A DNA stretch of 64,000 bases, taken from Myxococcaceae bacterium (GTDB taxonomy: Bacteria > Myxococcota > Myxococcia > Myxococcales > Myxococcaceae). Position 1 is the stretch's first letter. Every line of letters starts with the position of its first letter. This document shows, piece after piece, positions 42,792-52,971 of this stretch. The position numbers were made by a program, and so were the translations under genes. The notes under the pieces were generated by a model, which worked only from the letters and a program-made list of their open reading frames with translations, ran no database searches and had not been told where the DNA came from. The stretch spans positions 1 to 64,000 of the forward strand of contig JAEUJQ010000030.1 in NCBI GenBank assembly GCA_016793095.1, in the 5' to 3' direction.

Positions 42792-44594
42792 GTGGGGACT
42801 CCTGACGCGACCCTCGAGCGCTTGAGCGAGTGGCGCACGGCGATCGCCCGGCTGTACCTCACCGGCGTCACCACGGTGATGCCCATCATCATCGTCGCCT
42901 GGGTGGTGTCTCGCAGGCCAGTGAGCATCGACGGCCCCGTCCTCTACGTGACGGGCGCCTGGGTCGGCTTCGTCCTCGCGCGCGTCTTCGCGCCTCCGCG
43001 GCTCCAGGCGGTGCTCGTCGTCGGGCTGCTCTTCGGCATCGGCGTCACCGGGCCGTCGGTGCTTGGCCTGTCTCCGGGGCCGTTCCTGTCGGGGCTCACC
43101 GGCGCCATCCTCGCGGGCACGTTCTTCGGGCGACGGGTGGCGCTCGGGGTGCTGGGAGCCTTTGGGGTGGTGCTGCTGGGGTACGGGGTGCTCGCTTCAC
43201 GCAACGCCCTGCCCTGGATCCAGACCACCCCGACCGACCCCTTCATCCTCGCGAACTGGATCCGCCTCGCGGCGTTCACCTCCCTCACCACCGGGCTCCT
43301 CATCTTCGTGCTGACCGGGTTGTTCGAGCGGCTGGTCGAGGCCTGGCGAGCGACGGCCGAGGCGGCGGAGCGAGAGCGGGTGGCCGCGGCCCACCGACGA
43401 GAGGCAGAGGAGCGCGCCGTCGAAGCACAGCGGCTCGAGGCCATCGGTCGCCTGGCCGGAGGCGTGGCCCACGACTTCAACAACCTGCTCGTCGTCATCA
43501 TGACGTGGGCCGACCTGCTCCCCACCGCTCGCAGTGAGGAGGAGAAGAAGGAAGGGTTGACGGCGATCCGGGAGGCGTCGGCCCAGGCAGCCCAACTGAC
43601 GCGTCAGTTGTTGTCGTTCGCGAGGAAAGGAGTCACCCAGCTCGGCCCCGTCGACGTCGAGGCGTCCATCACCAACACCATCCGCGCCCTCCGCCGGCTG
43701 CTGCCCGACGATGTGCAGCTCCAGCACGCGCCGACGAAGGTGCCCCTGGCGTGGGCCGACGCTGGCCAGGTGGGGCAGGTGCTGCTCAACCTCGCGGTGA
43801 ACGCCCGCGACGCGATGCCGCGCGGGGGAACCCTGACGTTCCGCACGAGCCTGGCGGAGCCGCCTGGACTGCCGCCCGAGGCCCCAGACCCCACAGGCCG
43901 CTACGTCACCATCTCGGTGACGGACACCGGCGTCGGCATGGACGAGGCCACCCGCGCGCGCGTCTTCGAGCCCTTCTTCACCACCAAGAGCATGGGGCGT
44001 GGCACCGGGCTCGGCCTCGCGACGGTGTACGGCATCGCGACCCAGGCGAGGGGCTTCGTCACTGTCGAGTCCGCGCCTGGAGTGGGTTCGACCTTCAGGG
44101 TCGCCTTTCCCGTCGCGCCCGCCGACCAACCGGTCCCCGTCGTGCACGAGAGCGCGCGCCCCGAGGCGTTCGTCGGAGTGACCCACCGTGTCCTCCTCGT
44201 CGAAGACGACGCGCGCGTTCGCTCGACGATGGCGACCGCGCTCCGGCAGGCGGGCATCGAAGCGGTCGAGGCCTCCAACGCCGAAGAGGGCCTCCAGCTC
44301 GCGCGACGTCACACCGCGGACCTCGAGCTGCTCTGCACCGACGGCGTGATGCCGGGCCTGCCGACCCACCAGCTCATCGAGGGCTTCCGACAGCTCTACC
44401 CGAGAGCTCCCATTCTCCTCTGCTCCGGCCACGTCGAGGAGGAGCTGCTCGTGCGCGGCATCGCGGAAGGCACGGTCTCGGCCCTGCCCAAGCCCTTCAC
44501 CGCCGAGGCCCTGGTGACCCGGGTTCGTGAGCTGCTCACCCGCCGACGCAGCAGCGACCAGGTGCCGCGCGTCGAGCAACCGAGCGCCCCGTAG
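42792..44594 (+). CDS. Hybrid histidine kinase with C-terminal receiver domain
   Basis: A 600-residue protein. About six N-terminal membrane helices (20-185) without a clear periplasmic domain are followed by a coiled linker (FERLVEAWRATAEAAERERVAAAHRREAEERAV). The HisKA phosphoacceptor GGVAHDFNNLL (His about 225) and the HATPase with NLAVNARDAMPRGG, DTGVGMD, FEPFFTTK and GTGLGLATVYG come next. A receiver domain has VLLVEDDARVR, the phospho-acceptor Asp in CTDGVMPG (about 516) and Lys in PKPF. No output partner is adjacent, so signal and target are unknown. Confidence 0.93.
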   Translation: MGTPDATLERLSEWRTAIARLYLTGVTTVMPIIIVAWVVSRRPVSIDGPVLYVTGAWVGFVLARVFAPPRLQAVLVVGLLFGIGVTGPSVLGLSPGPFLSGLTGAILAGTFFGRRVALGVLGAFGVVLLGYGVLASRNALPWIQTTPTDPFILANWIRLAAFTSLTTGLLIFVLTGLFERLVEAWRATAEAAERERVAAAHRREAEERAVEAQRLEAIGRLAGGVAHDFNNLLVVIMTWADLLPTARSEEEKKEGLTAIREASAQAAQLTRQLLSFARKGVTQLGPVDVEASITNTIRALRRLLPDDVQLQHAPTKVPLAWADAGQVGQVLLNLAVNARDAMPRGGTLTFRTSLAEPPGLPPEAPDPTGRYVTISVTDTGVGMDEATRARVFEPFFTTKSMGRGTGLGLATVYGIATQARGFVTVESAPGVGSTFRVAFPVAPADQPVPVVHESARPEAFVGVTHRVLLVEDDARVRSTMATALRQAGIEAVEASNAEEGLQLARRHTADLELLCTDGVMPGLPTHQLIEGFRQLYPRAPILLCSGHVEEELLVRGIAEGTVSALPKPFTAEALVTRVRELLTRRRSSDQVPRVEQPSAP

Positions 44595-45922: not shown

Positions 45923-47287
45923 TCAGGGCTCTTCGGCGTCGGGCAGGAAGAGCCCCAGCCGCTTCATCACGCGGTAGAGCTGCGTGCGGTGCATGTCGAG
46001 CTGCTTCGCGGCGGCCGACACGTTGTTCCCCGTCGCCGCGAGCGCCGCCATGATGGCCTCGCGGTCGGGGTCGCCGCTGCTCGGCACGGGCGGAGCGCCC
46101 GGCTTCACACCCGAGCCGACGGACGCGCGAGACGACGCCGGCGGCACCGGCGCGCCGCCCGCCACCGGTTGCCCGGCCTGCGGCGCGAGGTGCTCGGCCC
46201 TCAGCACGGTGCCCTTCTCGGCTTGCGCTGCAGCAGCCGCCTTCCGGGTCTCGGACAAGAGCTCGCGCACGTTGCCGGGCCACGGCCGCACGAGCGCCGC
46301 CTCGACGGCGGTGGCGTGGAGCTCGACGGGAAGCCCCGACAGCGCGTGCCGCATGAGCCACGGCACCTCTTCCTTGCGCTCCCGGAGCGGCGGCAGCAGC
46401 ACCTCGAACTGCGAGAGCCGGTAGAAGAGGTCCGAGCGGAAGGTGTTCGCGGCCACCGCCGTGCGCAGGTCCCGATGTGAGGCCGCCACGACGTGCACCG
46501 ACGCCTTACGCGGCGTCGCGGCGCCGAGCTGCAGGTACTCGCCGGTCTCGAGCGCGCGCAGCAGCTTCGCCTGCACCTGCAGGTCGAGCTCGGCAATCTC
46601 ATCGAGGAACAGCACACCGCCGTCGGCGGCCGCGAGGTAGCCCTCGGCGTCCTGCTTCGCCTCGGTGTAGGCGCCCTTCACCGCGCCGAAGAAGAGCCGC
46701 TCGGCCACGCTCGCCGGAATCGCCGCGCAGTTGACGGCGACGAAGGGTCCCTTGCGCGCGCCGGCCTCGTGGTACCGCGACGCCACCAGTTCCTTGCCCG
46801 CGCCGCTCTCGCCACGCACGAGCAGGTGGGCGTTCGTCGCGCGCGCCACCGTCGCCCGGTCGAGCGCCTGCTGCAGCGTGGGCCCGATGATGACGTCGTC
46901 GTGCTTCACGTGCCCGGCGAGCCAGCGGCGCAGGTCGGCCTCGAGCAAGAGCACCGTCTGGGCGAGCCGCACGACGGCCCCCGACCTCGCCTTCACCGTG
47001 CCCTCGACGCGGGCGCCGTCCACCCAGGTGCCGTTCCGACTGCCCAGGTCCTTCACCTGGAAGTCGCCGTCGCTCAGCGTCACCTCGGCGTGCTGTCTCG
47101 AGACCTTCTCGTCCGGCACCGGCAGTCCGCCGATGTCCTCCCGGCCGAGGCGCAGCACGCCGTCCCGGGGCAGGACGACCGGCCGGTACTGCGGCGCGCG
47201 GCCCGAGAAGATGAGGATGGCGCCCGGCACGGGGACGGACACGGCGTTCGTCTCGACGACGCTCTCGCTCTGGGTGCTCTGCGACAT
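45923..47287 (-). CDS. FHA-domain sigma-54-dependent transcription activator (enhancer-binding protein)
   Basis: 454 residues. An N-terminal FHA domain (about 25-105) has LRLGREDIG, SRQHAEVTL and LGSRNGTWVDG, which binds phosphothreonine. The AAA+ domain (about 125-350) has GESGAGKE (Walker A), GGVLFLDEIAEL (Walker B) and WPGNVREL. The sigma-54 contact loop reads GAYTEA instead of GAFTGA. A Fis-type helix-turn-helix (about 405-445) follows: NNVSAAAKQLDMHRTQLYRVMKRLGL. In myxobacteria FHA activators pair with Ser/Thr kinases. Divergent to it lies a kinase gene behind a sigma-54 promoter, so it probably controls that gene. Start at 47287. Confidence 0.94.
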   Translation of the reverse strand: MSQSTQSESVVETNAVSVPVPGAILIFSGRAPQYRPVVLPRDGVLRLGREDIGGLPVPDEKVSRQHAEVTLSDGDFQVKDLGSRNGTWVDGARVEGTVKARSGAVVRLAQTVLLLEADLRRWLAGHVKHDDVIIGPTLQQALDRATVARATNAHLLVRGESGAGKELVASRYHEAGARKGPFVAVNCAAIPASVAERLFFGAVKGAYTEAKQDAEGYLAAADGGVLFLDEIAELDLQVQAKLLRALETGEYLQLGAATPRKASVHVVAASHRDLRTAVAANTFRSDLFYRLSQFEVLLPPLRERKEEVPWLMRHALSGLPVELHATAVEAALVRPWPGNVRELLSETRKAAAAAQAEKGTVLRAEHLAPQAGQPVAGGAPVPPASSRASVGSGVKPGAPPVPSSGDPDREAIMAALAATGNNVSAAAKQLDMHRTQLYRVMKRLGLFLPDAEEP

Positions 47288-47325
47288 GGGCAGCGGACGG
47301 TAGCGAAAATCAGGCCATGAGGTTG

Positions 47326-47358
47326 GTGACACAGCCTGTGTCGCGCTCGTGCTGTGTC
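47326..47358. promoter_or_regulatory. Inverted and direct repeats, candidate activator-binding site
   Basis: GACACA (47328-47333), three bases, then TGTGTC (47337-47342) form a perfect 6-bp-arm inverted repeat, and a further TGTGTC stands at 47353-47358. The repeat lies 57-72 bp upstream of the -24 element of the sigma-54 promoter, a usual distance for an enhancer-binding protein. It sits midway between the divergent activator and kinase genes. Confidence 0.6.
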
Positions 47359-47398
47359 AGCAGCCGCTGCACGGGGATTTGCGCGGCGGAGCCAGTGG

Positions 47399-47413
47399 TG
47401 GCACGAACGTTGC
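47399..47413 (+). promoter_or_regulatory. Sigma-54 promoter (-24/-12)
   Basis: TGGCACGAACGTTGC matches the consensus TGGCAC-N5-TTGC at every fixed base, with the invariant GG (47400-47401) and GC (47412-47413) ten bases apart. Transcription would begin near 47425 and read the kinase gene. The neighbouring gene encodes a sigma-54 activator, which makes chance occurrence unlikely. Confidence 0.8.
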
Positions 47414-47430
47414 GGAGAGCTCTCGAACCC

Positions 47431-49740
47431 GTGTCTGCGGCGCTGACCCCACCCGACTCACAGGAGCTCGACTCGTCGTCGAGCGACCGCTCCCCGCCGG
47501 GGCCGGCGCAGGTGTTGTCCCGGGGCACCTCCGTTGGCCGCTATGTCGTGCTGGACGCGCTGGGCACGGGCGGGCAGGGCGTCGTCTACGGCGCGTACGA
47601 CCCGCAGCTCGACCGCAAGGTGGCCCTGAAGCTGGTGCGCGTGAAGACGGGCGCGGACGCGAGCGACGAGCAGCGCGCGCGGCTGCTCAAGGAGGCGCAG
47701 GTGCTCGCGCGCCTCTCTCACCCGAACGTGGTGACGGTGCACGACGTCGGTCGCTTCGCCGATCAGCTCTTCATCGCCATGGAGTTCATGGCCGGGGGCA
47801 CCCTCGCCGCGTGGCTCGAGACGAAGCCGCCGGTGGACGCGGTGCTGGACCGCTTCCGGGAGGCAGGTCGGGGCCTGGCCGCCGCGCACTCGGCGGGCAT
47901 CGTCCATCGTGACTTCAAGCCCGACAACGTGCTGCTCGACGAGCACGGCATGGCCCACGTGACGGACTTCGGGCTCGCGCGGGCGCTCGACGGCAGCTCC
48001 TCGGCCACCGGCGGCGGCACCGCGGCGTGGATGTCGCCCGAGCAGCGTGCGCGCCGCGACGTCACGCCCGCCTCGGATCAGTACTCGTGGTGCCTGGCGC
48101 TCTTCAGGGCGCTCACCGGGGCCATGCCGTTCGACGGCGGTGACGCCGAGCTGCGCTTCCCGCCCCAGGTCCCCGCCTGGCTGCGCCGGGTGCTGACGCG
48201 CGGCCTGGCCGCAGACCCTTCGCTGCGGTACCCGTCGATGGACGCGCTGCTGACCGCCGTCGCGAGCGACCCCGACCAGACGCGACGGCGGTTCTGGCGG
48301 GGCGCGCTGGCGGTCGCGGGCCTCGTCGCGTTCGGGGTGGCGGGCGGCGCCCTCGTCTTCCGTGAGAGCCCCGCTGAGCGCGCCACCCGTGAGTGCCTCG
48401 CGAAGGTCGACACCACCATGGCCACCACCTGGGGGCCCGCCCGCGTCGCCGCCATGAAGGACGCCTTCGTCACCAGCGCAGGCGAACCCGGGCGCGAGGC
48501 CTTTGCCCGAGTGTGGACGCAGCTCGAGCCCGAGACGCGGGCCTGGGCCGACGCCTCACGTGCGCTCTGCCTCCTCGACGCATCGAGCCCCACACGCCGA
48601 GCGACCGCCCGCTGCCTCACCGCCCGGAGCAACGCCCTGTCGAGCCTCGCCGAGGTCTTCGCGTCGGCCGACGCCCAGGTGGTGGAGAACGCGCAGGCCA
48701 CCGTCACCCTCGAGGTGCAGCCGGTGGGGACCTGCGAGGCCTCACCAGCCACCCTCCCCGCGCTCGCCCAGGACACCGAGGCCGATCGCGAGCTGCGCCC
48801 GGAGCTGAGCCGCGCGCGGGTGTTGAGGGCGGCCGGGCGCTACACCGAGGGGTTGAGCGCCGCGCTCGAGGTCGCCTCCACCGCGCACGACGAGAAGGCG
48901 CTGCAGGTGGAAGCCGAGGCACAGCTCCTGGCCGGCCAGCTCTCCGCCGAGCTGCGCCGCCCCGACGCCGAGTCTTTCTTGAAGAGCGCCGCCAGCCTCG
49001 CCGAGCGTGCAGGCGCCGACGACGAGCGGGCGAGCGCGTGGATCTCCCTCGTCGGCTGGTACTCCGAGCGCGACCGCTTCGACGCTGCGCACGACGCCGC
49101 CGCCACCGCCGAGGACATCACCACACGGCTCGGCCAGCCGGACCTGCTCGAGGCGCTGCGCTTGAGCCAGCTCGGCCAGCTGCTCACCCGCGAAGGCGAT
49201 GTCGCCGCCGCGCGCGAGGCCTTCCAGAAGGCGCTGACGCTCCGGCGCCGACACTTCGCGCCCTCGCACCCGCTGGTGACGCGCGCGCTCACCAACCACG
49301 CGCTGTCCCTGCCCGCGGCCGAGGCCCAGCCGCTGCTGCTCGAGGTGCTGCGCATCCGCGAGCAGACCCTCGGCCCCACGCACCCCGAGACGGCGCTGGC
49401 CGAACACAACGTCGGCGTGGTGATGCTGGGCAACGGCTCGTGCGAAGGCGCACGCACCCACGTCGGCCGCGCGCTCGCCATTCGCCAGCAGATGCCGCAG
49501 GCCGACGTCGCCCGGCTCGGCCGCGAGCACGCCGTGCTGGCCCGCGCCCAGGAGTGCCTGGGAGCGCTCGAAGCCGCCGCGGAGAGCCTCCAGCAGGGCA
49601 TCGACGCGATGAGGCAGGGCGGCGCTCCAGACGCCGAGCTGCGCCGGGAGCTGAACCACCTGCTCGACCTGCTCGAGCGCCTCGAGCGCCCGAAGGACGA
49701 GCTCGACCGTGTGACGGAGGCCCTGCGACAGCTCGATTGA
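47431..49740 (+). CDS. Membrane-bound Ser/Thr protein kinase with TPR sensor domain
   Basis: About 769 residues from the GTG at 47431. The long frame opens at 47317, but that would put the sigma-54 promoter and operator inside the gene, so a later start is preferred; another GTG is at 47512. The kinase domain (about 35-285) has GTGGQGVVY, VALKLV, HRDFKPDN, DFGLA and SPEQ. One membrane helix (about 295-315) follows, and a long periplasmic part has TPR repeats. Eukaryote-like kinases of this form are common in Myxococcota and can phosphorylate FHA partners; the divergent activator is the clear candidate. Confidence 0.92.
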   Translation: MSAALTPPDSQELDSSSSDRSPPGPAQVLSRGTSVGRYVVLDALGTGGQGVVYGAYDPQLDRKVALKLVRVKTGADASDEQRARLLKEAQVLARLSHPNVVTVHDVGRFADQLFIAMEFMAGGTLAAWLETKPPVDAVLDRFREAGRGLAAAHSAGIVHRDFKPDNVLLDEHGMAHVTDFGLARALDGSSSATGGGTAAWMSPEQRARRDVTPASDQYSWCLALFRALTGAMPFDGGDAELRFPPQVPAWLRRVLTRGLAADPSLRYPSMDALLTAVASDPDQTRRRFWRGALAVAGLVAFGVAGGALVFRESPAERATRECLAKVDTTMATTWGPARVAAMKDAFVTSAGEPGREAFARVWTQLEPETRAWADASRALCLLDASSPTRRATARCLTARSNALSSLAEVFASADAQVVENAQATVTLEVQPVGTCEASPATLPALAQDTEADRELRPELSRARVLRAAGRYTEGLSAALEVASTAHDEKALQVEAEAQLLAGQLSAELRRPDAESFLKSAASLAERAGADDERASAWISLVGWYSERDRFDAAHDAAATAEDITTRLGQPDLLEALRLSQLGQLLTREGDVAAAREAFQKALTLRRRHFAPSHPLVTRALTNHALSLPAAEAQPLLLEVLRIREQTLGPTHPETALAEHNVGVVMLGNGSCEGARTHVGRALAIRQQMPQADVARLGREHAVLARAQECLGALEAAAESLQQGIDAMRQGGAPDAELRRELNHLLDLLERLERPKDELDRVTEALRQLD

Positions 49741-49788: not shown

Positions 49789-49823
49789 GTGTCACACTGT
49801 GTCGTGTCACTTCGCCGGTGTCA
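49789..49823. promoter_or_regulatory. Cluster of TGTGTC/GTGTCA repeats upstream of the cupredoxin operon
   Basis: GTGTCAC (49789-49795), TGTGTC (49798-49803), GTGTCAC (49804-49810) and GTGTCA (49818-49823) lie within 35 bp after the kinase stop. They share the core of the operator at 47326-47358. No -24/-12 box is visible here. Confidence 0.4.
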
Positions 49824-50379
49824 GGCGAGGTCCGCCCGGATTTCAACGAGTTCCGCAGCGCGCTCCAGTCTGGGAGCGGCGGCGGTGCGGCTGGCAAGGC
49901 GGGTCGCGAACGGCCTCGAGGTCTCGGTCAACGGGCAGGTCGGCGTACAGGACCGGCAGTCGGACCCGACGGTGTGGCAGTTCCACGCGGGGGCGGCGGC
50001 GAAGCTCGACTTGTCCGTCCTCGTGCTGACGGCCGAGGGCATGTTCGGGCGAGCGGCCGGCAAGACGGGCGTCCTCGCAGGTGAGGCGGTGCCGTGCACG
50101 GCGGCCTCGTGTCTCGTCTACCGCGGCGCCTATTTGCAGGCGGGCTGGCGCGCGCTGCGCTGGCTCACGCCGTACGCGCGGGTCGACTGGCGCTCGGGCA
50201 CGATGACGTTCGCGCGCGAGTGGCTCTACGAGAGCGTGCGCGTGCGGGCGACAGCCGGCGTGCGGGTCGAGCCCCTGCGGCGCGTGGCCCTCAAGGCGGA
50301 GTACACCTTCAACCGCGAGCTCGTCGGCCCCGACTTCCCCGACGATGTCTTCACCACCAGCGTCGTCGTGAGCTACTGA
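49789..50379 (+). CDS. Outer-membrane barrel-like protein, probably 5'-truncated
   Basis: An open frame of 196 codons. From about residue 40 it shows barrel strands (LEVSVNGQVGVQDRQ, FHAGAAAKLDLSVLVLTAEGMFG, YLQAGWRALRWLTPYARVDW) and ends VVVSY, the aromatic end of outer-membrane proteins. The first 38 residues look like random frame and no signal peptide is seen in any frame, so the gene may have lost its 5' half. It sits between the kinase and the cupredoxin gene, with 2 bp to the latter. It is either a remnant or a miscalled start. Confidence 0.5.
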   Translation: MSHCVVSLRRCQARSARISTSSAARSSLGAAAVRLARRVANGLEVSVNGQVGVQDRQSDPTVWQFHAGAAAKLDLSVLVLTAEGMFGRAAGKTGVLAGEAVPCTAASCLVYRGAYLQAGWRALRWLTPYARVDWRSGTMTFAREWLYESVRVRATAGVRVEPLRRVALKAEYTFNRELVGPDFPDDVFTTSVVVSY

Positions 50380-50381
50380 CC

Positions 50382-51062
50382 ATGCGCTCCACCGTCCTCG
50401 TCACCGCGACGCTGCTCGCCTCGTCGATGGGCCTCGGGCAACCACCAGCCCCCTCGGCGAAGGCCAGCTGCAGCGTGACAGGCACGGTGGCGTTCTCGAC
50501 GAGGGACGCCACCCTCACGCCGAGCGACGTCGTGGTGTACGTCGCCCAGGGCAAGCGCAAGGGCATGTCGCTGCCTGCCGCCACGCGCCACGAGATCGCC
50601 CAGGTGAAGAAGCAGTTCACCCCGCGCACGCTCATCATCCAACGCGCCGACTCGGTGGCCTTCCCGAACCGCGACACCCCCGTCGAGCACTCGGTGTTCA
50701 GCAGCGACCGCACCACCGTGCGCATCAAGCCGAACTCGAAGGCCGAGCCCGAGCCAGCGACGTTCACGAGGGAAGGTGGCTTCCGCATTCAGTGCGACAT
50801 CCACAGCAAGATGCGGGCCTGGGTCATGGTGGTGCCTGACCGCAGCCTCGCCACGCAGGTGCGCGAGGATGGAAGCTGGCGAATCGACAACGTGCCGGCT
50901 GGAGCCCACACGCTGAAGGTGGCGGAGCCCAACGGCGCGACCGTCGAGCTGCGTGTCACCGCCTGTGACAGTGACACACCGGTGCAGGTGACGCTCGAGG
51001 GCAACGAGGCGCCCACGCTGCGGCGCTTCAACGGCTCGCCGTATGGAGAGTACCAGCCGTGA
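50382..51062 (+). CDS. Exported cupredoxin-like protein
   Basis: A 226-residue protein with a signal peptide (MRSTVLVTATLLASSMGLG). The plastocyanin-like domain (about 30-150) has VEHSVFS and IQCDIHSKMRAWVMV, giving the His, Cys, His, Met set of a type-1 copper site. A beta-sandwich domain of carboxypeptidase-regulatory type (about 155-215) follows. It probably carries electrons in the periplasm. Its stop overlaps the next GTG (GTGA), so translation is coupled. Confidence 0.85.
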   Translation: MRSTVLVTATLLASSMGLGQPPAPSAKASCSVTGTVAFSTRDATLTPSDVVVYVAQGKRKGMSLPAATRHEIAQVKKQFTPRTLIIQRADSVAFPNRDTPVEHSVFSSDRTTVRIKPNSKAEPEPATFTREGGFRIQCDIHSKMRAWVMVVPDRSLATQVREDGSWRIDNVPAGAHTLKVAEPNGATVELRVTACDSDTPVQVTLEGNEAPTLRRFNGSPYGEYQP

Positions 51063-51985
51063 GCGGGCGGCTCGCCTGGAGGCTGGTGGGGGTGCTCGCG
51101 GCGCTGGTGCTGGTGTGCTCGGTGAAGCCCGTGCTGGCCGGGCCCGCCGAGCAGCGAGGCCGCGCCACGTTCCTCGACCGGTGTGCGCTGTGCCATGGCG
51201 AAGACGCCGACGGCCACGGGCCGGTCGGCGCGACCCTGCCGCTCAAGCCGCGGAACTTCCGGCGCGAGCCGCTGCAGTGGGGCAACTCGCTGCGCAGCGT
51301 GGTGGACACGGTGAAGCACGGCCGACAGGGCGTGATGCCCTCGTTCCAGGAGGTGCTGTCGCCCTCGGAGCTCGCCGACGTCGCGGCGTACGTCTGGTCC
51401 ATCATCCCCGCGGAGCAGAAGAAGAAGTCGGCGCAGGCGCCGAAGCCGCAGGCCGCGCAGGCGCGGGTCTTCCTCATCCACCAGAAGAACAAGCTCTTCA
51501 CGCCGACGGCCGTCACCGCGCGCGTAGGCGACACGCTCGTCTTCGTGAACGAGGACGAGGTCGAGCACGAGGTGCACGCGCTCGACGACACCACCAGCCC
51601 TCCCATCCAGAGCCAGAAGCCGCGCCAGTGGGACCGCGTCGAGCTGACGACCGCGGGCACGCTCCGCTTCGGCTGCGCGATTCACCCTGCGATGCGGCTC
51701 GAGGTGAAGGTCGAGCCCGCAGCGGGCAGGCCCGACGGCGCCATCGAGGTGCGGCAGAAGGGCCAGCAGTTCTCACCGGCCGAGGTGACGGTGCCGGTGG
51801 GCCGCTCCATCACCTTCGTCAACGACGATGACGTCGCGCACAGCGTCTTCAGCAAGGAGGGGGGCTTCGAGCTGCCGGTGCAGCGGCCAGGCGAGCGGGC
51901 GCCGGTGACGTTCGACACACCGGGGACGGTGGAGGTGCGCTGCGCCATTCACCCGGGCATGAAGCTCAAGGTGAAGGTGAAGTGA
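51059..51985 (+). CDS. Cytochrome c with two C-terminal cupredoxin domains
   Basis: A 308-residue exported protein. Signal peptide MSGRLAWRLVGVLAALVLV...LAG; cytochrome c with CALCHGEDADGHG (about 43) and a Met in GVMPSFQEVLS. Two plastocyanin-like domains follow, each with a type-1 copper site: EHEVHAL...GCAIHPAM, and AHSVFS...RCAIHPGM. One heme and two copper centres in a single chain would make a wire. Coupled to the genes on both sides (GTGA, TGATG). The arrangement is uncommon, and the physiological partner is not known. Confidence 0.87.
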   Translation: MSGRLAWRLVGVLAALVLVCSVKPVLAGPAEQRGRATFLDRCALCHGEDADGHGPVGATLPLKPRNFRREPLQWGNSLRSVVDTVKHGRQGVMPSFQEVLSPSELADVAAYVWSIIPAEQKKKSAQAPKPQAAQARVFLIHQKNKLFTPTAVTARVGDTLVFVNEDEVEHEVHALDDTTSPPIQSQKPRQWDRVELTTAGTLRFGCAIHPAMRLEVKVEPAAGRPDGAIEVRQKGQQFSPAEVTVPVGRSITFVNDDDVAHSVFSKEGGFELPVQRPGERAPVTFDTPGTVEVRCAIHPGMKLKVKVK

Positions 51986-52971
51986 TGCAGGCGCTGCTCG
52001 TCGTCCTCCTCGCCGCCGCGCCGAAGGAGCCGCCCCTCGAGCTCCAGGCACGTGCCTTCGCGAAGGCCACCGCGCGGCCCGCCTCGGTGAAGCCGGCGAG
52101 GGCCGAGCTGGTCGCGCTGGGGCGGCAGCTCTTCTTCGAACCGCTGCTCAGCGGCTCCGGCGCGATGTCGTGCGCCACCTGTCACAACCCGTCGCTGAGC
52201 TGGGGAGACGGGCTGCCGCGCGGGCTGGGCAGCGACGGCAAGGCCCTGCCACGCCGCACGCCGACGGTGCTCGACGTCGCGTGGGGCCAGACGTTCATGT
52301 GGGACGGGCGCTTCGAGACGCTCGAGGCGCAGGCGTTGAGCCCCATCACGTCGCCGGCGGAGATGAACCTGCCCGAGGAGCACCTCGCGCCGCGGCTCGA
52401 AGCCGTGCCTGGCTGGCGGGAGGCGTTCGCGCGGGCGTTCCCCGACGCGGGCGTGTCGGCGCAGAACGTCGCGGTGGCGCTGGCGGCGTTCGAGCGCACC
52501 ATCGTGTCGGGGCGTGCTCCGTTCGACCGGTGGGTCGCGGGCGAGCGGACCGCGTTGAGCGACGCCGCGAAGCGCGGCTTCGTCGTCTTCAACACGAAGG
52601 GCGCCTGCGTGAAGTGTCATTCGGGCTGGCGCTTCACGGACGAGAGCTTCCACGACATCGGCGTCGCCGATGACGACCGGGGCCGGGGCGGGCTGCCGGC
52701 CTTTCAGTCGTTCCGGGTGCTGCAGCACGCCTTCAAGACGCCGTCGCTCCGAGACACCGCCCGGCGCGGGCCGTGGCTGCACGACGGGTCCGCGAAGACG
52801 CTCGAGGCTGTCGTCGAGCTCTATGACGTGGGTGGCCTGGTGAAGCGGCCGAGCCTGTCGGCGGACATCAAGCCGCTGGGGCTCTCGCCGCAGGAGAAGC
52901 AGGACCTGGTGGAGTTCATGAAGAGCCTCTCGGGCCCCGTCGAGGTGTCCGTGCCCGTGCTGCCTCGCTGA
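51985..52971 (+). CDS. Diheme cytochrome c peroxidase / MauG-family protein
   Basis: A 328-residue exported diheme protein. Heme sites are CATCH (63-67) and CVKCH (208-212). Family features are LGRQLFFEPLLSG near the front, LPRRTPTVLDVAW, AFERTIVSGRAPFDRW and FKTPSLRDTARRGPWLHDG. Such enzymes reduce hydrogen peroxide with electrons from cytochrome or cupredoxin, or oxidise protein residues (MauG). The upstream cupredoxin proteins are likely donors or substrates. The ATG shares a base with the stop before it. Confidence 0.9.
   Translation: MQALLVVLLAAAPKEPPLELQARAFAKATARPASVKPARAELVALGRQLFFEPLLSGSGAMSCATCHNPSLSWGDGLPRGLGSDGKALPRRTPTVLDVAWGQTFMWDGRFETLEAQALSPITSPAEMNLPEEHLAPRLEAVPGWREAFARAFPDAGVSAQNVAVALAAFERTIVSGRAPFDRWVAGERTALSDAAKRGFVVFNTKGACVKCHSGWRFTDESFHDIGVADDDRGRGGLPAFQSFRVLQHAFKTPSLRDTARRGPWLHDGSAKTLEAVVELYDVGGLVKRPSLSADIKPLGLSPQEKQDLVEFMKSLSGPVEVSVPVLPR

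Follow-up and report, generated by a model that had tools for sequence, protein, structure and literature searches.

A divergent pair of genes, an FHA-domain sigma-54 activator and a transmembrane Ser/Thr kinase, lies within a stretch of 64,000 nucleotides from a Myxococcaceae bacterium (GenBank assembly GCA_016793095.1, contig JAEUJQ010000030.1, positions 1 to 64,000 of the forward strand), here called the window. We propose that the pair forms a kinase-gated sigma-54 switch, which feeds back on the kinase gene and has a local envelope/redox operon as its output, and we give this reading a probability of about 0.6. The features that carry the proposal are the two genes and two elements in the 143 bp gap between them:

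45923..47287, minus strand: activator gene, encoding an FHA-domain bacterial enhancer-binding protein of 454 aa with FHA, AAA+ sigma-54 interaction and Fis-type HTH domains (Pfam PF00498, PF00158, PF02954)
47431..49740, plus strand: kinase gene, encoding a transmembrane Ser/Thr kinase with a TPR domain, 769 aa (PF00069, TPR_12)
47326..47342, no strand assigned: palindrome GTGACACA-N3-TGTGTC(AC), candidate activator-binding site, centred 90 bp upstream of the predicted kinase transcript start
47399..47413, plus strand: sigma-54 -24/-12 box of the kinase gene, TGGCACGAACGTTGC (TGGCAC-N5-TTGC), with GG/GC at 10-nt spacing and invariant in 4/4 genomes

The initial annotation had read the left gene as an FHA sigma-54 activator and the right gene as a kinase, and the domain matches agree with it (FHA, sigma-54 AAA+ and HTH_8 on the left, Pkinase and TPR on the right). 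The inverted repeat GACACA-N3-TGTGTC (GACACAGCCTGTGTC) that it placed at 47328-47342 is present as described, as is the sigma-54 box at 47399-47413, in which 11 of 12 consensus positions are matched. This box is the top scorer among all GG/GC boxes of the window. Genome-wide counts were obtained by pattern and family searches in the window genome (G000, 8.81 Mb). There, the exact core TGGCAC-N5-TTGC occurs 9 times, versus 7 times for the reversed control pattern. The box alone is therefore not significant, and the case rests on its place and conservation. At a rate of 9 per 8.81 Mb, the chance that an exact core lands in the gap is about 1.5e-4. GACACA-N3-TGTGTC has a single occurrence in the genome (control, 0), and the repeat is longer in relatives, where it reads GTGACACA-N3-TGTGTCAC. 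When up to two mismatches are allowed, the 17-base palindrome is found at this site and at one other in the window genome, which is about the control level. Hence, we rejected a wide regulon addressed through this 17-mer. The organism also encodes sigma-54 itself (rpoN; PF04552, E 1.8e-64).

The conservation of both elements was followed in a genus sample of seven genomes. Four of them carry the divergent pair, namely G000, G001, G003, and G005, and the orthologues in the latter three are 78-83% identical for the activator and 72-76% identical for the kinase. A cross-genome alignment of the gap had been set beforehand as a test, and both boxes are retained in every orthologous gap that has both genes (4/4). 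In the 157-column alignment, the 14 columns of the palindrome and the 10 of the sigma-54 box are invariant without exception, compared with 45 of 133 elsewhere; the hypergeometric value of 2e-10 for this difference disregards relatedness and overstates its strength. The distance from the palindrome centre to the predicted kinase start is 90, 90, 91, and 91 bp in the four genomes, a normal enhancer distance. The 17-base palindrome is perfect and single in G001, G003, and G005, and a search at up to one mismatch in the pair-less genus members G002, G004, and G006 returned no copy.

Two further elements were read in the gap:

47353..47359, plus strand: extra half-site TGTGTCA, read from the sequence; its place is not kept in relatives
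47302..47317, minus strand: weaker sigma-54-like box that reads towards the activator gene and lies 15 nt ahead of the ATG; the sequence is TGGCCTGATTTTCGCT, with TGGCACGTTTTCCGCT in G001, G003, and G005

The GG and GC of the activator-facing box are kept in 4/4 genomes (p 0.035, weak by itself). The genus also keeps a TTTGCG string in the interval from the palindrome to the sigma-54 box (GATTTGCGC at 47377-47387; CGTTTGCGG in L142, L143, and L144).

The proteins have the parts that such a switch would use. The most likely activator start is ATG 47287, because the mechanically assigned start at 47332 falls within the inverted repeat. For the kinase, GTG 47431 is the most likely start, because the differences between G003 and G005 beyond this codon are nearly all at third codon positions. 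The kinase motifs VALK, HRDFKPDN, DFG, and SPEQ occur in the four orthologues, so that the catalytic motifs are intact, and the same four proteins share a hydrophobic, transmembrane stretch near residues 292-310. In the activator, the AAA+ domain (PF00158, E 1.9e-53) has GESGAGKE as Walker A, LFLDEI as Walker B, and FRSDLFYR as arginine finger. The phosphothreonine-pocket residues of the FHA domain are invariant in an alignment of 7 relatives, and the pocket is intact. The positions within the activator gene are:

46964..47152, minus strand: FHA domain with the pocket residues GR, SxxH, and NG
45959..46066, minus strand: HTH_8 (Fis-type) DNA-binding domain, by Pfam profile match
46658..46675, minus strand: L1 loop GAYTEA in place of GAFTGA, read from the translated activator aligned with relatives

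Right behind the kinase stop codon lies a second cluster of the same half-sites, and an operon for envelope and redox proteins follows it:

49791..49823, plus strand: second half-site cluster GTCACAcTGTGTCGTGTCA-N8-GTGTCA, conserved in the alignment
49912..50379, plus strand: 3' remnant of a porin-like gene, recognized by comparison with relatives; its upstream part is deleted
50380..51062 (start approximate), plus strand: exported cupredoxin-like protein, assigned to the putative target operon, with homologues in G001 and G005
51059..51985, plus strand: cytochrome c fused to cupredoxin domains (PF13442, PF00127, PF13473), putative operon member in the window genome
51982..52971, plus strand: di-haem cytochrome c peroxidase/MauG-type protein (PF03150), putative operon member in the window genome

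The second array is laid out as GTCACA-N-TGTGTCGTGTCA, followed by another GTGTCA. With up to two mismatches, its core has one copy in each pair-bearing genome, and no copy was found when G002, G004, and G006 were searched. In G001, G003, and G005, where the start of the operon is intact, a good sigma-54-like box, TGGCAAG-N4-CTGCA, follows the array at a distance of 84-93 bp, with a normal leader and a Shine-Dalgarno sequence behind it. The operon behind this box in G001 and G005 encodes pentapeptide-repeat, CCP/MauG di-haem, porin-like, and cupredoxin-like proteins; the G003 contig stops shortly after the first operon gene. The pentapeptide-repeat protein was named from its sequence, without a Pfam match, and the porin-like protein by eye. 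The cupredoxin-like homologue of G001 has a weak Cupredoxin_1 match, and the protein at 51982..52971 scores under the NCBIfam MauG equivalog cut-off. The window genome lacks about 2.9 kb equivalent to 6.8-9.8 kb of G001. This deletion, at 49830-49912, takes the -12 part of the second promoter, the genes for the pentapeptide-repeat protein and the peroxidase, and the greater part of the porin gene, and it joins the post-kinase region to the middle of the porin-like gene. Either a strain-level event or a join made in assembly could account for it. The cytochrome c-cupredoxin and MauG-type di-haem genes at the end of the 50380-52971 run are found in neither the G001 nor the G005 operon.

The pairing of FHA activators with Ser/Thr kinases extends beyond this locus, as the initial annotation had assumed for myxobacteria. 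In the window genome, a kinase domain is present within 1.5 kb of 7 of 21 FHA activators versus 0 of 22 other activators (Fisher 0.0036), and such a pairing is also found on a Sandaracinaceae contig. It is a recurrent myxobacterial kind. Six genomes of the same family, which we take to be Myxococcus- or Archangium-like, have an activator of about 55% identity divergent from a TPR kinase, three of them directly and three with one gene between. Upstream of the kinase, a palindrome of the same half-sites at 4-base spacing is found in five of the six loci (TGACAC-N4-GTGTCA in three, GACAC-N4-GTGTC in two), and the sixth retains one half-site. In three of these Myxococcus-type loci, the kinase ATG follows the palindrome after 14-36 nt. 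The three loci with an inserted gene have a conserved sigma-54 box, TGGCAYNTCGGTTGCC, which reads into that gene, and the start that it predicts is 129-131 bp from the palindrome. The HTH recognition region HRTQ[LV]YR is common to the Myxococcus-type activators and the window activator. These observations fit one operator type retained by one activator subfamily while the local target changes. The gene inserted in the G105 copy (L237) encodes an exported GH16 hydrolase, and a GTTTGCG string, similar to the TTTGCG kept in the gap of the window genus, lies between box and palindrome in L237-L239.

We propose the following order of events. The membrane kinase would sense a cell-envelope condition through its TPR ectodomain and, directly or via a partner, would make a phosphothreonine mark to be bound by the FHA domain of the activator. 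We put signalling from the kinase to its paired activator at slightly better than even odds; for phosphorylation of the activator, the intact catalytic motifs of the kinase, the intact phosphothreonine residues of the FHA domain, and the adjacency of the genes are indirect evidence. The activator would then bind the TGACAC/GTGTCA half-site arrays, as their position and conservation and the type of its HTH domain suggest, and the palindrome is probably its site. From there, 90 bp upstream, it would fire the sigma-54 promoter of the kinase gene and so close a feedback loop. That it controls the kinase gene through sigma-54 is a good probability, given the conserved boxes and their constant spacing. 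From the second array, it would fire the envelope/redox operon, in line with the three relatives that keep a second sigma-54-like box. The adjacent operon is its likely target, and we hold to control of that operon nearly as firmly. As about 45 bp separate the palindrome from the start predicted for the activator gene, occupancy of the palindrome may repress or weakly activate this gene as well. Control of the kinase gene by the activator had been proposed in the initial annotation and is favoured by the conserved boxes at constant spacing in four pairs and by the enrichment of kinases next to FHA activators. That reading had the gene pair and the boxes right and was incomplete in that it missed the operon with its own site array, the activator-facing box, and the GAYTEA loop.

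Several points weigh against the proposed switch, and the GAYTEA loop is where they start, as its glutamate raises real doubt about the contact of the activator with sigma-54. All four orthologues have GAYTEA, a G003 paralogue has GAFTEA, and the G018 sequence has GAYTDA; together they form a supported clade (99/94) in a subfamily that otherwise has mostly GAYSGA or GAFSGA. The other loops recovered by pattern in the window genome are GAFTGA, GSFTGA, GAFSGA, and GAFTDA (two), and in one survey of the fetched DNA, glutamate occupies the second-glycine position in only 5 of 158 distinct loops. In E. coli NorR, aspartate at this glycine makes the protein constitutive and glutamate makes it non-functional (PMC2941729), and altered GAFTGA loops accompany sigma-70 dependence in TyrR, DhaR, and HupR (PMC3162934). 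The activator could thus bind the palindrome without driving sigma-54, as a repressor or as a sigma-70-type regulator like TyrR and HupR, while another activator serves the sigma-54 box; the repressor-like place of the palindrome in three Myxococcus-type loci would suit this. We consider it unlikely, since in each genome with the pair the sigma-54 box is intact and its distance to the palindrome holds at 90-91 bp, the second array precedes a second sigma-54-like box, the Walker A and B and arginine-finger motifs are undamaged, and loop position 3 tolerates Tyr in place of Phe (PMC2941729). The conserved boxes suggest that the activator probably still works with sigma-54. A more speculative view, which we hold to be possible and rather doubtful, is that the acidic GAYTEA loop is natural to this protein and that regulation has been re-adjusted to centre on the FHA domain and the membrane kinase of the pair; the output would be the periplasmic di-haem peroxidase/cupredoxin operon.

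The remaining points against the switch concern the promoters and the comparisons. The second promoter is damaged in the window genome, and the operon would therefore have to be transcribed there by read-through from the kinase gene. With a kinase transcript start near 47425, as predicted, the leader before the likely GTG start would be only 6 nt long, and a Shine-Dalgarno-like GGAGAG lies upstream of the GTG, so that the exact start position is doubtful. TGGCAC is one base from the half-site TGACAC, and a lone TGGCAC could pass as a -24 element; the conserved and correctly spaced TTGC argues against such a mistake for the kinase box, and less so for the activator-facing box. G003 and G005 are close kin, and four genomes are therefore fewer than four independent tests. 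Finally, the pair kinases of the window genus and those of the Myxococcus-type genomes are not sisters in the kinase tree, in which this branching is weakly supported; this placement being a separate one, we claim neither one-to-one descent of kinase and activator across genera nor independent recruitment. The genes could also be neighbours only through a shared target, the envelope operon, and not because the kinase phosphorylates the activator, the FHA domain then reading marks left by another of about 150 kinases. The window genome does have 151 Pkinase matches, 14 of its 21 FHA activators have no kinase inside 1.5 kb, and the kinase neighbours of related activators are scattered over the kinase tree. 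The absence of such neighbours from all 22 non-FHA activators and the recurrence of the pairing in the Myxococcus-type genomes and in Sandaracinaceae make this explanation somewhat less probable still than a sigma-54-silent activator. That the boxes are chance products of a GC-rich gap, an incidental palindrome beside a sigma-54-like string, is very improbable. The similar counts of the exact core and its control would allow it, but it is refuted at the sequence level, as the boxes are invariant, keep their spacing across the four genomes, and occur strictly together with the gene pair, and we rejected it.

The locus bears on the question of what turns FHA sigma-54 activators on, and which of a myxobacterium's roughly 150 kinases is responsible. 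The FHA-domain enhancer-binding proteins of Myxococcus xanthus were reportedly treated by Jelsbak, Givskov and Kaiser in 2005, a study cited in PMC12288465 and PMC4320627. To our knowledge, these proteins share with the window activator the combination of FHA, AAA+, and Fis-type HTH domains, and they too belong to a sigma-54-rich myxobacterium whose Ser/Thr kinome is large. The window activator differs from them in its divergent TPR kinase, candidate operator, likely local target operon, and GAYTEA loop. The EmbR-PknH system of Mycobacterium tuberculosis likewise joins a transmembrane Ser/Thr kinase to an FHA-bearing transcription regulator; EmbR, unlike the window activator, is not known to be an AAA+ sigma-54 activator. 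Phosphorylation in that system is mediated by the FHA domain, at least as the work is cited in PMC2877116 (Molle et al. 2003), whereas phosphotransfer in the window pair is a prediction. The norR-norVW divergent region of E. coli is similar in having an activator divergent from its target, multiple enhancer sites, and a sigma-54 promoter (PMC2941729). NorR has a GAF domain that senses nitric oxide and a GAFTGA loop, in contrast to the FHA domain and GAYTEA loop here. The locus is a compact and testable case, in which a single kinase and a single activator come with two binding arrays, two or three promoters, and an output operon close by, and it offers a natural test of how acidity at this position affects the GAFTGA loop. 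Its proposed complete local circuit and its unusual loop place it above routine, though it belongs to a recurrent myxobacterial kind.

Some minor observations concern related loci. The window genome has another divergent FHA activator and kinase pair (L172:3612-5406, contig C13), and a gene for a hybrid histidine kinase with a receiver domain lies near the activator gene at 42792-44594. On the G018 contig C277 (L146), an activator looks divergent from a porin gene; we rejected it as regulatory evidence, as both genes are cut short where they meet head to head at the junction, probably through misassembly. Upstream of the 53% paralogue in G003 (L145:5850-6180), repeated CGACACG / GTGTCGACAC strings make up a related yet different candidate operator. 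In a subclade of 45% activators (L147, L148, and L149), the upstream palindromes read TGGCACGG...CCGTG(T)GCCA, one base from the TGACAC half-site.

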